Positions 20,977 through 27,063 of a DNA stretch of 29,215 nucleotides are shown in pieces; position 1 is the stretch's first letter, and the number at the start of each line of letters is the position of its first letter. The DNA lies in IMG/VR virus record IMGVR_UViG_3300032213_001083, positions 1-29,215 of that record. One strand, given 5' to 3'. Position numbers and translations under genes: made by a program. Source of the stretch: a virus. The notes beneath the pieces are model-generated. The model had not been told where the DNA came from. It saw only the letters and a list, made by a program, of their open reading frames with translations, and did no database searches.

Positions 20977-21364
20977 CATCCTCCTGGTATCTTGTTCGGC
21001 AGAGTATCATCTGCACAAAGCAATGAAAAAAGGATATAAATGTGAAGAGGTATCCGATACACTTCGCATCACATCGGTTGATTCATTTCCGGTAATCGTA
21101 AACAATGAAATTATGTGGGAGAAATTCATCACTCAAAAGGATACGGTTGTAATGTGGAAAACTCAGTACATTCCACGCACCCGTTGGGAGAAAAAAATCG
21201 AATATAAATTAAAGAGAGATACTATCCGCCAAATTCAAAAGGTGGAAGTTGCCAAATATAAAAGCGAGAAGAAATCGAAAGCAAATATTTGGTTGTTTGT
21301 CATAGGATTTGGACTCGGACTATTCACCAAATACCTTTTCAAATATGCTCAAAAAGCACTCTAA
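20948..21364 (+). CDS. Unimolecular spanin-like lipoprotein
   Basis: The 138-residue protein starts MGKLSTLIFSILLVSCSAEY, a signal peptide with lipobox L-V-S-C (C16). It ends with a transmembrane helix at about 113-131 (NIWLFVIGFGLGLFTKYL) and a short basic tail. In between is a charged, probably extended region (TRWEKKIEYKLKRDTIRQIQ). Lipoprotein at one end and a membrane helix at the other is the layout of u-spanins (as in T1 gp11), which bridge and fuse inner and outer membranes in Gram-negative hosts. Position right after holin and endolysin supports this. The family seems unannotated in Bacteroidota phages. Confidence 0.65.
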   Translation: MGKLSTLIFSILLVSCSAEYHLHKAMKKGYKCEEVSDTLRITSVDSFPVIVNNEIMWEKFITQKDTVVMWKTQYIPRTRWEKKIEYKLKRDTIRQIQKVEVAKYKSEKKSKANIWLFVIGFGLGLFTKYLFKYAQKAL

Positions 21365-22220
21365 AAACATTCACGAGCTTCACCTTGATGGAGCAACCGT
21401 TCAACTTGCAATGATGTCCGACCTTCACTGGGACAATCCAAAATGTGATTGGGATTTATTGAAACGTGATTTTGACTATTGCCTTGAGAATGATATTAAG
21501 GTAATGGTCAATGGTGATTTCTTTTGCTTGATGCAAGGGAAAGGTGATCGCAGAGGAAACAAGTCCGATATCCGGCCTGAACATAACAACGCAAAGTATT
21601 TGGATTCAATCGTTGAAACTGCGGTTGATTGGTTTTCACCATATGCTCACATCCTTACTGTCATCGGATACGGGAATCATGAAACCGCCATCATCAAGTA
21701 TCAAGAAACGGACATCCTTCAGAGATTTGTTGACCTACTTAATTATAAGAATGGGAGTAATGTAATGACCGGAGGATATGGTGGATGGATTATAATTCAT
21801 CAGAAATACACTGTGAGCTCTTCGACCACAACCAAGGTGAAATACTTCCATGGCTCAGGCGGTGGAGGAATTGTGACCAAGGGAGCAATCAACTTGACCA
21901 GGGCATTGGAAACATACGAGGATTTTGATATCTTCTCAATGGGACACATCCATGAGAATGCGTGTCGAAATGATGTGAGAGATACGGTGACTCATGTTCC
22001 CAAACATGGATATGTCAACCATCACAAAAATATTCACCTCATGCTTACCGGAACTTACAAAGAGGAGTACGGTGATGGATCCAAAGGATGGCATGTTGAG
22101 CGAGGAGCTCCCATTAAACCAACCGGAGGAAGGATACTGAAGATAAATGCAAAAGAAATCAAGAGAGAAGGCATAAGAAAAATGCATAAAAGTATCGACT
22201 CAATCAAATTTCCTTTGTAA
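21345..22220 (+). CDS. Metallophosphoesterase (calcineurin-like)
   Basis: I start at ATG 21345 (MLKKHSKNIHELHLDGATVQ), which overlaps the spanin-like gene by 20 bp. The 291-residue protein has all motifs of the family: SDLHWD (D26, H28), VNGDFF (D58), GYGNHET (N111, H112), H169 and GHIHE (H201, H203). The family cleaves phosphodiesters in nucleic acids, cyclic nucleotides or headgroups. It is the last gene before a strong terminator, in a lysis operon where it is unexpected. A role in host DNA/RNA degradation or defence evasion is possible; the substrate cannot be told. Confidence 0.85.
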   Translation: MLKKHSKNIHELHLDGATVQLAMMSDLHWDNPKCDWDLLKRDFDYCLENDIKVMVNGDFFCLMQGKGDRRGNKSDIRPEHNNAKYLDSIVETAVDWFSPYAHILTVIGYGNHETAIIKYQETDILQRFVDLLNYKNGSNVMTGGYGGWIIIHQKYTVSSSTTTKVKYFHGSGGGGIVTKGAINLTRALETYEDFDIFSMGHIHENACRNDVRDTVTHVPKHGYVNHHKNIHLMLTGTYKEEYGDGSKGWHVERGAPIKPTGGRILKINAKEIKREGIRKMHKSIDSIKFPL

Positions 22221-22251
22221 ATTAGCAACTCATTAGCGTGTGTAATTGGGG

Positions 22252-22279
22252 GTATCGGAAACGGTACCTCTTTTTTTTA
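22252..22279 (+). terminator. Terminator at end of late/lysis operon
   Basis: GGTATCG (22252-22258) pairs with CGGTACC (22263-22269) with one G-U and a GAAA tetraloop, then TCTTTTTTTT. It ends the rightward late transcription before the regulatory gap. Confidence 0.85.
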
Positions 22280-22331
22280 TGGGTATAACCTTACAAATCA
22301 CATCATTAATTCAAGGTATAGCCTGATATTG

Positions 22332-22360
22332 TGTCGCATATTTAGCAGATATTTGCGACA
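22332..22360 (+). promoter_or_regulatory. Dyad operator 1: TGTCGCA-N15-TGCGACA
   Basis: Perfect 7-bp inverted repeat with a 15-bp spacer, centre at 22346. It ends two bases before the -7 box TACCTTTG at 22363-22370. Geometry is that of a homodimer binding about two helical turns (half-sites 22 bp apart). Confidence 0.6.
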
Positions 22361-22362
22361 TT

Positions 22363-22370
22363 TACCTTTG
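22363..22370 (+). promoter_or_regulatory. Possible promoter -7 box TACCTTTG
   Basis: Match to TAnnTTTG between the two dyads. No TTG at the usual 17-20 bp upstream is seen, so the promoter may need an activator. It reads rightwards. Confidence 0.35.
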
Positions 22371-22384
22371 TTCTATTACAATAA

Positions 22385-22413
22385 TGTAACATATTTACAC
22401 TTGTTTTGTTACA
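22385..22413 (+). promoter_or_regulatory. Dyad operator 2: TGTAACA-N15-TGTTACA
   Basis: Perfect 7-bp inverted repeat with a 15-bp spacer, centre at 22399, 53 bp (about five helical turns) from dyad 1. Together the two give the pattern TGTnnCA-N15-TGnnACA. They would fall on the same DNA face. Confidence 0.6.
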
Positions 22414-22467
22414 AACATTTGACACTATTTCGATTTATTGGCAATTGTATATACGCATTAGCACCCC

Positions 22468-22518
22468 ATCGGGTATAAATAACATCAATTACCATACATG
22501 AATACCCTATCGGATATA
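22468..22518 (+). repeat. Direct repeat ATCGGRTATA x2
   Basis: ATCGGGTATA (22468-22477) and ATCGGATATA (22509-22518), each with CCC just before, 41 bp apart. Part of this also forms an inverted pair GGGTAT/ATACCC. Likely a further protein-binding site. Confidence 0.4.
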
Positions 22519-22566: not shown

Positions 22567-22596
22567 TTTGCATTTATGAAACCTTTCATATCTTTG
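22567..22596 (+). promoter_or_regulatory. Strong host-type promoter TTTG-N18-TATCTTTG
   Basis: TTTG (22567-22570) is followed after 18 bp by TATCTTTG (22589-22596), a good match to the Bacteroidota promoter consensus. The start of transcription would be near 22603 and the first gene begins at 22623. It should drive the early/replication operon. Confidence 0.8.
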
Positions 22597-23696: not shown

Positions 23697-23947
23697 AACC
23701 ATCAACCAAAATACTCGCCATCGTTGGAATACTTCCGGTGATTGGTGACTTCATCGAGGACATGAATGATGAGAAGATATTCACAAAGTCAATAAAACAA
23801 AAGGCGAATATGCTACTCGATGAGATTCGACGAAGTGATAAGAGATTACTCGATGATGCCGGAGAAGAGATATGGAATCAACAAATGGATATACAAATGG
23901 CCTTCAGACAATGGCTACAAAACGCAGAAGATGACAAAGAACGATAA
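23693..23947 (+). CDS. Hypothetical protein (84 aa)
   Basis: The product starts MKPSTKILAIVGILPVIGDF and then is helical and charged (EKIFTKSIKQKANMLLDEIR). The N-terminal hydrophobic stretch is too short to be a sure membrane helix. It precedes the DnaA-IV-like gene with a 17-bp overlap, so it might be part of the replication unit. No family is recognised. Confidence 0.55.
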   Translation: MKPSTKILAIVGILPVIGDFIEDMNDEKIFTKSIKQKANMLLDEIRRSDKRLLDDAGEEIWNQQMDIQMAFRQWLQNAEDDKER

Positions 23948-24335
23948 AATAAAAGCAATTAAATACATCATCCAACGAGATGCATTGGATGTAACGAGTC
24001 GACACCAGGTATTGACAATGAGAAGGAGATACCTAATGGCTGAATTGAGAGCATTGAATCTCCCATTCCATTCCATTGGTGAACTATTCAATCGAGGTCA
24101 TGCAACAGTGATGCATAACATCAAGCAACACAATTGGTCCGTTGAGAGTGGTGATTTATATTACATTACCGTAATTCAAGATGATATCGATGAGCTTCAG
24201 GGAAGTGCTAATGTAAAAAAATTACGATTTTTGAGAGATGATATCCTCAAATGTAGATCATACAATCAGCTCAAATCAATCAAAAGGAGAGTGTTGAGGA
24301 ATGAATATGAGGAGCTCTTGAGCGGTGATGCGTGA
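23931..24335 (+). CDS. DnaA domain IV-like DNA-binding protein (candidate replication initiator)
   Basis: I start at ATG 23931 (MTKNDKIKAIKYIIQRDALD), within the end of the preceding gene. Residues 20-68 match the DNA-binding domain IV of DnaA: DVTSRHQVLTMRRRYLMAEL, then ALNLPFHSIGELFNRGHATV and MHNIKQH. The segment R55-G-H-A-T-V-M-H aligns with the DnaA signature GRDHTTVLHA, and the first helix R..vl...RRrYLMAELR with the R.....a.yL..el region. There is no AAA+ domain. The C-terminal 60 residues are helical. It sits directly before an iteron-rich gap and the primase-helicase, so it may bind the origin. A regulator role is the alternative. Confidence 0.7.
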   Translation: MTKNDKIKAIKYIIQRDALDVTSRHQVLTMRRRYLMAELRALNLPFHSIGELFNRGHATVMHNIKQHNWSVESGDLYYITVIQDDIDELQGSANVKKLRFLRDDILKCRSYNQLKSIKRRVLRNEYEELLSGDA

Positions 24336-24562: not shown

Positions 24563-24656
24563 AAATGCAGGGACAAAAAGGAAATTATTAGAATCCTCTT
24601 GGATTAGTAGTGCTGCATTCACGAACATCCAAGAGGATTTTTCATTTTAAATGCAG
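24563..24656 (+). ncRNA. Hairpin leader / possible attenuator or small RNA
   Basis: A perfect 12-bp stem, AATCCTCTTGGA (24592-24603) with TCCAAGAGGATT (24628-24639), loop of 24 nt, is followed by TTTTTC. If transcription starts at about 24563 this gives an RNA of about 80 nt with a terminator-like 3' end. The loop CTGCATT (24613-24619) is complementary to AATGCAG both upstream (24564-24570) and downstream (24650-24656), allowing two mutually exclusive pseudoknots. The downstream copy is 4 nt before the likely TTG start of primase. It may be an attenuator of primase, a translational switch, or a stand-alone small RNA. Confidence 0.4.
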
Positions 24657-24660
24657 TAAA

Positions 24661-27063
24661 TTGAAAGTATCAGTTTTTAAGAATCTTTTTAGCTCAAAAG
24701 ATACACCGTATGAGCTCACAATTCATGACATATACCAACGCATCAAAGTTGGGAATCCTGAATTGATTTCCAAAATAACAAAAATTAGAAAACTCGAAAA
24801 GAGTGATCCGGAGCATGACCGATTGAAGTCATCATTGAATGCAATTATGTTCAATGGGATATTCTCGGAAAGAAACGACAATTCCTTGGTTGAACATTCC
24901 GGATTATGTGTATTGGATTTTGACCAATATCCAACGAAGGAGGCAATGGATGCAGAGAGAGCTCGATTGATTGATGATAAACACGTCATGATGGTATTCA
25001 CCTCTCCAGGTGGAAATGGATTGAAGGCGGTAATCAGTATTCCAAAATCAGACAAGCTAGAACACAAGAGAAGATTCACCGCATTTGGGAAATACTTCCA
25101 ATCGGACTATTTTGATGTGAAGAATTCAAATGTATCTCGTGTATGTTTTGAATCATACGATCCGAAAATATACTTCAATGAATTTTGTCAAGTATGGGAT
25201 GGAATTGAAACCGATGAGGGATACAATTACACTGAAAGGACTCCAACTTGCGTATTGAATGATGAGGATAAGATTATCTCATTGATTGAACGATTTGACC
25301 ATGGATGTAGATTCGAGGAAGGCAGTCGAAATCACTTTGTTTTCAAGTTGGCTTGTGTCATGTGTGAATATGGCATCGATAAGTCAACCACTGAACAATA
25401 CATATGGACAAAGTATTGTCAAGGAACGAGCTTCAATCATGGTGAGATGGTGACATCCATCAATTCAGCATACAAAAAGGCTACATTCTCAACAAAATAC
25501 TTTGAAGATAAGGATACCTTCCACAAGGTCAAACAAAAACTTAAGTCAGGAATCACTAAGGATGATATCAAGAAACAACTTGGTGTGGCTGACGACATTA
25601 TCGATGATATCAAGGAAGAGATTGCATCCGGTGATGATGTTTTTTGGATGGTGGACTCAAAAAAAGGAATTCAAATTGAGCCAATCAAATATAGTGAGTT
25701 CCTTGTGAAGAGTGGATTCAACAAATACTATCCGGAGAATGCTGAACGACCGACATTTGTGAGGGTAAAGGAGAACAAAGTACGATTGAGCTCAACTGAG
25801 CAAATCAAAGATTATGTTTTGAACTACCTTCTCGATAAGAATGAGGTCAACGTTTGGAACTATTGCTCACGATCACCATATCTCTTCAATGAGAATCACC
25901 TAAACATGATTGACTCGATTGATATCTTCATGCTCCAGGACACAAAGGATTCATCATTCATCCCATTCAAGAATGGAGTGGTGAAAGTATCCAAGAATGA
26001 TGTTAAGGTCATGAGTTATATCGATGTAGATGGATACATTTGGGAGAATCAAATCATTCAACGTGATTTCACACCAATCAAGGACTCAACAAATGACTTT
26101 GAGGATTTCGTGAAAAAGGTATCGGCCAATGATGATGTGAGAATCATGTCACTTGAAACAACCTTGGGATATCTGATTCATTCCTTCAAAGATAAGACCG
26201 ACCAAAAGGCAATCATCTTCAATGACCAAGAGATTGATGACAATCCAAATGGAGGAAGTGGAAAGTCATTGATGTTGGCAGCTCTCGGATACTTCCGAAG
26301 AGTAGTGAAGATTGATGGTAAGGCATTCAATCCTGGAAAGAGTGATTTCGTTTATCAGCGAGTTAACTTGGATTCTCAAATCTTAGCATTCGATGATGTG
26401 AAAAGGAACTTTGATTTTGAGCAACTGTTCTCAATCATATCGGAAGGGATAACAGTCAATCGAAAAAATAAGGATGAGATATTTATCCCATTCGAGAGGT
26501 CGCCAAAGATTGTAATCACAACCAACTATGTAATCAGTGGAGCAGGAAGCTCTCATGACCGGAGAAGGCATGAGCTTGAATTCTTTCAATACTTCCATTC
26601 AAGACGATCACCACTGGATGAGTATGGAAGATTGCTCTTCGATTCATGGAATGATGATGATTGGATTCGCTTTGACAATTACATGATAAAGAATCTTCAA
26701 TCTTTCCTATCCAATGGATTGACCAAATCAATCTCAATCAATGCCGATGCGAAGAGATTCATCCAATCGACATCGAAAGATTTCTATGATTGGACTGAGG
26801 AGGGGAATCTTGCACTCAATGTATTCCATTACAACAGTGGAGTGATGCAACAGTTCACATCCGAATTCAATGGATATAAAGAATTGGAATCAAGGAAGTT
26901 CCTCAAGTGGGTGGCAGAGTATGCCAATGTGAAAGGATATGTGATGAGTAAAGGCAGAAATCACAATGGCAGATATTTTGAATTAAGTATACCAGGTGTA
27001 AAGGTTGAGAAACCAAAGGGAGATATTTGGGATGAGTTAAACGATAAAGCAAAGGAGATATGA
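24661..27063 (+). CDS. Primase-helicase (VirE N-terminal + SF3-type helicase)
   Basis: The likely start is TTG 24661, giving (M)KVSVFKNLFSSKDTPYEL, the usual start of this family; the upstream GTG 24610 lies inside the hairpin. The product is about 800 residues. Residues 1-180 are a VirE/BT4734-like primase-type domain (LCVLDFDQYP, VFTSPGGNGLKAVI). Around 205-275 is a primase C-terminal-like helical domain. At 480-680 is a helicase of the SF3/D5 type: Walker A GGSGKS at 531-536, Walker B with D578-D579 (ILAFDDV), and an arginine-rich sensor region near 630 (SHDRRRHELEF). It would unwind and prime the origin. The host must supply the polymerase. Confidence 0.88.
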   Translation: MKVSVFKNLFSSKDTPYELTIHDIYQRIKVGNPELISKITKIRKLEKSDPEHDRLKSSLNAIMFNGIFSERNDNSLVEHSGLCVLDFDQYPTKEAMDAERARLIDDKHVMMVFTSPGGNGLKAVISIPKSDKLEHKRRFTAFGKYFQSDYFDVKNSNVSRVCFESYDPKIYFNEFCQVWDGIETDEGYNYTERTPTCVLNDEDKIISLIERFDHGCRFEEGSRNHFVFKLACVMCEYGIDKSTTEQYIWTKYCQGTSFNHGEMVTSINSAYKKATFSTKYFEDKDTFHKVKQKLKSGITKDDIKKQLGVADDIIDDIKEEIASGDDVFWMVDSKKGIQIEPIKYSEFLVKSGFNKYYPENAERPTFVRVKENKVRLSSTEQIKDYVLNYLLDKNEVNVWNYCSRSPYLFNENHLNMIDSIDIFMLQDTKDSSFIPFKNGVVKVSKNDVKVMSYIDVDGYIWENQIIQRDFTPIKDSTNDFEDFVKKVSANDDVRIMSLETTLGYLIHSFKDKTDQKAIIFNDQEIDDNPNGGSGKSLMLAALGYFRRVVKIDGKAFNPGKSDFVYQRVNLDSQILAFDDVKRNFDFEQLFSIISEGITVNRKNKDEIFIPFERSPKIVITTNYVISGAGSSHDRRRHELEFFQYFHSRRSPLDEYGRLLFDSWNDDDWIRFDNYMIKNLQSFLSNGLTKSISINADAKRFIQSTSKDFYDWTEEGNLALNVFHYNSGVMQQFTSEFNGYKELESRKFLKWVAEYANVKGYVMSKGRNHNGRYFELSIPGVKVEKPKGDIWDELNDKAKEI

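Follow-up and report, generated by a model that had tools for sequence, protein, structure and literature searches.

The two inverted repeats described here lie in a 340-bp gap between the terminator of the late operon and the early promoter of a viral genome, represented by one stretch of 29,215 bp from IMG/VR that was analysed at its full length (the window). Upstream of the gap the late/lysis block ends with a metallophosphoesterase gene, and downstream follow the early genes with the replication module (Table 1). One intrinsic terminator was found against 0.4 expected, and the early promoter is of the Bacteroidetes type, the flavobacterial -7 consensus being TAnnTTTG (PMC9723704). The listed start of the DnaA-like gene at 23820 is probably too early; its homologues begin with MTKxDKIKAIK, which places the start at 23931. 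We could not find a close relative of the window at the DNA level among deposited phages.

Table 1. Features of the window in and around the gap that contains the two dyads.
Feature	Position	Strand	Remarks
Metallophosphoesterase, end of late/lysis block	21309-22220		upstream of terminator
Intrinsic terminator, end of late operon; stem GGGGGTATCG-GAAA-CGGTACCTCT, then T-run	22248-22278	+	position conserved in relatives
Module GGTATAACCT ... GGTATAGCCT, copies 33 bp apart (three turns)	22282-22324	.	replaced by other modules in relatives
Dyad 1, TGTCGCA-N15-TGCGACA (N15 = TATTTAGCAGATATT)	22332-22360	+	29-mer recurs in many relatives and in unrelated phages
32-nt module with TACCTTTG and degenerate half-site TATTACA (22375-22381)	22360-22391	+
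Dyad 2, TGTAACA-N15-TGTTACA (N15 = TATTTACACTTGTTT)	22385-22413	+	CA/TG, CC/GG and AA/TG variants in same slot of relatives
Candidate degenerate half-site TTTGACA	22418-22424	-	proposed from sequence
Second palindrome pair CCCATCGGGTAT / ATACCCTATCGG	22465-22513	.	within gap
Early promoter, Bacteroidetes type, TTTG-N18-TATCTTTG	22567-22596	+	conserved in relatives
First early ORF, 55 aa	22623-22790	+	no family match
DnaA-domain-IV-like protein, candidate binder	23931-24335	+	PF08299, E 2.9e-7, 30.8 bits against a cut-off of 31.5
BT4734-like primase/helicase, replication module	24610-27063	+

The first-pass annotation of this DNA had described both dyads as perfect and as having centres 53 bp apart, and we found them exactly so, the distance from start to start likewise being 53 bp. 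The pattern TGTNNCA-N15-TGNNACA has just two matches in the window, which are these two dyads, and the letters that they have in common extend past the claimed pattern (TGTnnCATATTTA...TTTGnnACA). The geometry by itself is weak evidence, since there are six perfect 7-15-7 dyads of any sequence in the window against about 2.7 expected; the probability of two such dyads inside this 403-bp gap is P = 0.0035. The strongest argument against chance, and the decisive one, is that the dyads recur in unrelated phages together with conserved flanking letters. Each is a copy of the same element of 29 bp, TGTnnCA-N15-TGnnACA.

Between the two copies stands TACCTTTG (22363-22370), as had been reported. The 32-nt module that contains it has a copy of 75% identity 33 bp away (22393-22424), and many relatives have TACCCTTR at the position of the box (TACCCTTATT or TACCCTTGTT). 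Because of this repetition and of the letters in the relatives, the box is, as far as the letters tell, more readily understood as belonging to a repeated module than as a promoter. Upstream of it, at the right distance for the Bacteroidetes sigma-A pattern (TAnnTTTG with TTTG about 18-19 bp upstream), there is TTTA and not the -33 TTTG; it may be a weak promoter, the canonical early promoter lying elsewhere. The candidate half-site TTTGACA follows the last half-site of dyad 2 by 11 bp and would therefore be on the same face of the DNA.

We compared the gap in related phages by fetching 80 loci via the metallophosphoesterase, in 54 of which the gap could be measured. In these the terminator and the promoter are kept, while the interior, between 23 and 493 bp in size, is a mosaic of short palindromic modules. 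The dyads of the window correspond to two module slots, and relatives carry one, both or neither; the offset of the first slot and the middle letters of the second vary. Several relatives have the promoter and no perfect dyad (L015-L017, L027, L028, L033, L045-L049, L062, L063), so the dyads are dispensable. The two dyads had been taken for a cooperative or looping operator of the early operon, and the first-pass annotation had itself named what would speak against this, namely dyads that are not conserved where the promoter is; this is the situation in the relatives, where the promoter stays, the dyads do not, and some gaps are only 23 bp long. What stands of the operator proposal is the arrangement on one face, a geometry of the cooperative type; a conserved operator of the early promoter is not supported. 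The whole array is naturally absent from the shortest gaps, of 23-24 bp (L045-L049, L062, L063, L073-L076).

The claim that the two dyads occupy the same face was borne out generally, as half-sites are in helical register with a period of 10.7-10.9 bp. When the dyad itself was left out, the distances between half-sites (108 distinct type/distance pairs) gave R = 0.65 at 10.80 bp, against a maximum of 0.34 under a uniform null and at most 0.25 for four control motifs. With one array per cluster of <85% identity this value was 0.86, and for 39 arrays outside the window's family it was 0.62 at 10.76 bp. The gap lengths in the family (23, 88, 98, 109, 131, 152, 184, 205 ... 493) gave R = 0.76 at 10.68 bp (P < 1/2000), compared with 0.45 (P = 0.07) for a control length, the distance from promoter to DnaA in the same genomes. 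The register of the half-sites extends to the promoter (R = 0.61 at 10.65 bp, with a 99% null value of 0.41; R = 0.58 for representatives). Most spacings between dyads are whole turns (32/33, 44, 53/54/54.5, 97/98, 108/108.5, 129/130 and 141 bp), pairs in related arrays being 3, 5, 9, 10, 12 or 13 turns apart and those in the unrelated L124 four, and the off-turn spacings (67.5, 121.5, 209 and 294.5 bp) all occur in unrelated contexts; with spacings merged within 2 bp, however, only P = 0.04 is reached. The counts behind the phasing are not independent, modules being shared by descent. Half-sites and most dyads thus share one helical face and are in phase with one another as well as with the promoter, and modules are gained and lost in related phages almost exclusively by whole helical turns. 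Such whole-turn changes in gap length could arise from recombination between already phased repeats alone. Such register on one face implies a protein that oligomerises and recognises the DNA as a duplex, in the simplest case a regulator of the early operon.

The 29-bp element is common to unrelated phages. A pattern scan of viral contigs placed it in more than 100 stretches among the matches listed; clustering by flanks gave 25 contexts among these matches, a few of them being chance matches without pairing arms, and several intragenic hits to the loose pattern (clusters 4, 11, 17 and 22), whose arms fail to pair, were discarded as chance matches. In scans of whole records, unrelated phages of 46-114 kb were among the carriers, most of them with a single copy, and one or two copies per genome were usual. 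Other phages have multi-module arrays of a similar kind near groEL (L184) as well as between convergent genes (L089, L150). A lysis-cassette gene contains the element in the L083 group. With such positions, the element cannot in general serve to control an early promoter. Its asymmetric centre has a mixed orientation relative to genes, which is expected for a site acting at the DNA level. In L083, L118, L187 and L095 the element is in lysis-cassette coding sequence on the antisense strand and reads LSQ[MI][FY]AKYVT in two different proteins.

Outside these contigs the element is rare. We could not find it in 50,697 deposited phage records at the sensitivity of BLAST, and a BLAST search of deposited phages and plasmids returned nothing beyond partial matches at chance level. 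The CG variant occurs in three bacterial genomes of an 84,980-species collection, with one copy each, and 299 Flavobacterium genomes hold one true site, the four other matches being a single unpaired sequence. A host factor had been suggested as one possible regulator, and the near-absence of the element from host genomes disfavours a host regulon. The rare bacterial copies adjoin loci of the toxin-antitoxin type, the genes being named by eye: two dyads (L201, 1889-1916 and 2010-2038) are upstream of an AbiEi/AbiEii-like pair, and one (L200, 5215-5243) is behind a HipA-like gene. A search of the literature, both for the sequence and for the concept, brought up no account of the element, subscription papers being mostly outside its coverage.

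The other regulator that had been suggested, the HTH protein at 1242, finds no support as the general regulator, being present in only two of 19 carriers of the element (the window and G004). No universal partner gene was found among the 19; the most widely shared gene is that for the DnaA-like protein (9/19), whose predicted fold is nearest to the DnaA DNA-binding domains 3pvp and 1j1v. The gap might be the origin of phage replication, with the half-sites serving as boxes for this DnaA-domain-IV-like initiator, whose gene lies about 1.5 kb downstream. The gap adjoins the replication operon to which the gene belongs, loci with the gene often have a dyad 1.1-3.3 kb upstream, phased and repeated sites would suit an initiator, and the half-site T[TA]TGNNACA loosely resembles the DnaA box TTATNCACA. 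However, this resemblance covers only about 5/9 positions, and no canonical box (TTATNCACA or TTWTNCACA) was found in the gap. The DnaA-like gene is present in every one of the 47 family members that could be tested, 28 of which lack a perfect dyad; L027, L028 and L033 are without the dyad despite near-identical recognition motifs in the protein, and no DnaA-like gene was detected in the large carriers G009, G010, G012, G014, G019 and G021. There is also no GC-skew switch, the cumulative skew rising smoothly through 22-23 kb, which is a weak test with nearly all genes on one strand. We therefore consider an origin unlikely. The DnaA-like protein was rejected as the sole binder, as its gene does not track the dyads.

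A different alternative concerns the arms of the element. The variable letters match across the arms in 54 of 79 distinct elements, where 18.3 would be expected with independent halves and the shuffle maximum was 33, and the letters that pair are CG/CG, CA/TG, AA/TT and CC/GG. This covariation counts against a simple dimer site, which does not predict it; it may mean that a hairpin or pairing matters, or that template switching keeps the arms alike. One study (PMC8604942) reports that template switching homogenises the arms of inverted repeats and inverts their spacers, and the latter would also account for the mixed orientation of the centre. If base pairing itself were selected, the dyads would act as hairpins in a cruciform, in single-stranded DNA or in RNA, and dyad 1 does fold at -8.7 kcal/mol (z = -3.3); yet the fold of dyad 2 is weak (z about -1), helical phasing is a property of the duplex, the orientation to transcription is mixed, and template switching as described there would need no selection to give such arms, all of which makes hairpins improbable. 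Selfish or neutral palindromic modules, spreading among phages and accumulating in non-coding gaps with no phage function, would fit an element that is mosaic, dispensable and common to unrelated phages, often sits directly behind terminators or between convergent genes and shows no universal partner gene. Neutrality does not predict helical register in unrelated arrays or to the promoter, though, and perfect arms persist, copy number is unlike that of high-copy REP elements and no target-site duplication was seen by eye, so that we hold this to be rather unlikely. The one-face arrays, the independence of orientation and the same positions behind terminators and between convergent genes would also suit a general architectural site (for a nucleoid protein, or of the gyrase or partition type) that organises the phage genome where transcription is absent; this seems quite improbable, given that register with the early promoter is not required of such a site, that host genomes nearly lack the sites and that many relatives live without them. 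Three other candidates were tried and rejected: a structured RNA or terminator hairpin (mixed orientation, no Rfam match), the attP of a tyrosine integrase (PF00589 in 1 of 23 records from carriers or the family), and transposon ends or a MITE (no target duplication by eye, one to two copies per genome).

The reading that we favour, if tentatively, is that the dyads form two parts of a phased array made up of the half-site TGTnnCA and its inverse, putatively bound by an oligomerising protein and most likely tuning the early promoter. A dimeric protein of this kind would read the array as duplex DNA and contact adjacent sites along one helical face; in this phage the array would most likely tune the promoter downstream of it, by repression or activation, and module turnover would adjust the number and arrangement of sites with the register retained. 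A conserved host regulator is a less likely binder than a factor that is accessory or carried by the phage. The element belongs to widespread, rapidly shuffled short modules in viruses of aquatic bacteria and points to a putative clustering DNA-binding protein near the late/early switch. It is a defined bait for a putative DNA-binding protein common to phages of aquatic Bacteroidetes, and the 10.7-10.9 bp phasing, kept through heavy turnover, is a strong quantitative signature for finding that protein; presumed regulatory DNA here evolves by whole helical turns. A broader proposal, which we regard as somewhat unlikely, is that the phages infecting one group of aquatic Bacteroidetes, most of them uncultured, share a pool of interchangeable whole-turn modules, TGTnnCA dyads and companions, that one oligomerising protein of the host population or of accessory origin reads, modules being gained and lost to set the response while the register is kept. 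If true, this pool would be a previously undescribed interface of regulation or defence between phage and host.

Several known systems resemble the array in part. Cooperative phage operators (lambda OR/OL, TP901-1 CI-Mor, Stl-type) also have several dyad-symmetric sites near the promoter of a late/early boundary, but here the sites vary between close relatives in number, whole-turn spacing and middle letters, no dedicated neighbouring repressor was found, and these sites also turn up in unrelated phages and away from promoters. DnaA-box clusters and the iteron origins of phages or plasmids likewise combine repeated, phased 9-mers beside a replication operon with a DnaA-domain-IV-like gene in that operon; here, in contrast, the half-site is not TTATNCACA, is missing in relatives with the same initiator and has no skew switch with it. 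The PeaT promoter/terminator cassettes of T-even phages are mosaic, recombining and intergenic, and lie between a terminator and an early promoter. The gap of the window is mosaic in the same place, but its variable part is the phased dyad array and not a stem-loop and promoter themselves. REP/BIME extragenic palindromes are similar in length (20-40 bp) and in their position in non-coding gaps, often at gene 3' ends; they differ in occurring in hundreds of copies, as against one or two per phage genome here, where no adjacent RAYT was noticed and the sites are helically phased.

In the gap of L023 (offsets 147-187) two dyads are interleaved (TGTCACA..TGTCCAG..TGTGACA..CTGGACA), their half-sites following at intervals of about 11 bp, in an order that would also allow a pseudoknot in a single strand. 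In another phage group (L113, L116, L185) the dyad is nested in a longer inverted repeat, ATAGTAAAGTTTT ... AAACCTTACCAT. Between their dyads and the promoter, the gaps of L005, L015 and L031 have iteron-like direct repeats (ATACGCA/ATACGAA) spaced by about 11 bp.
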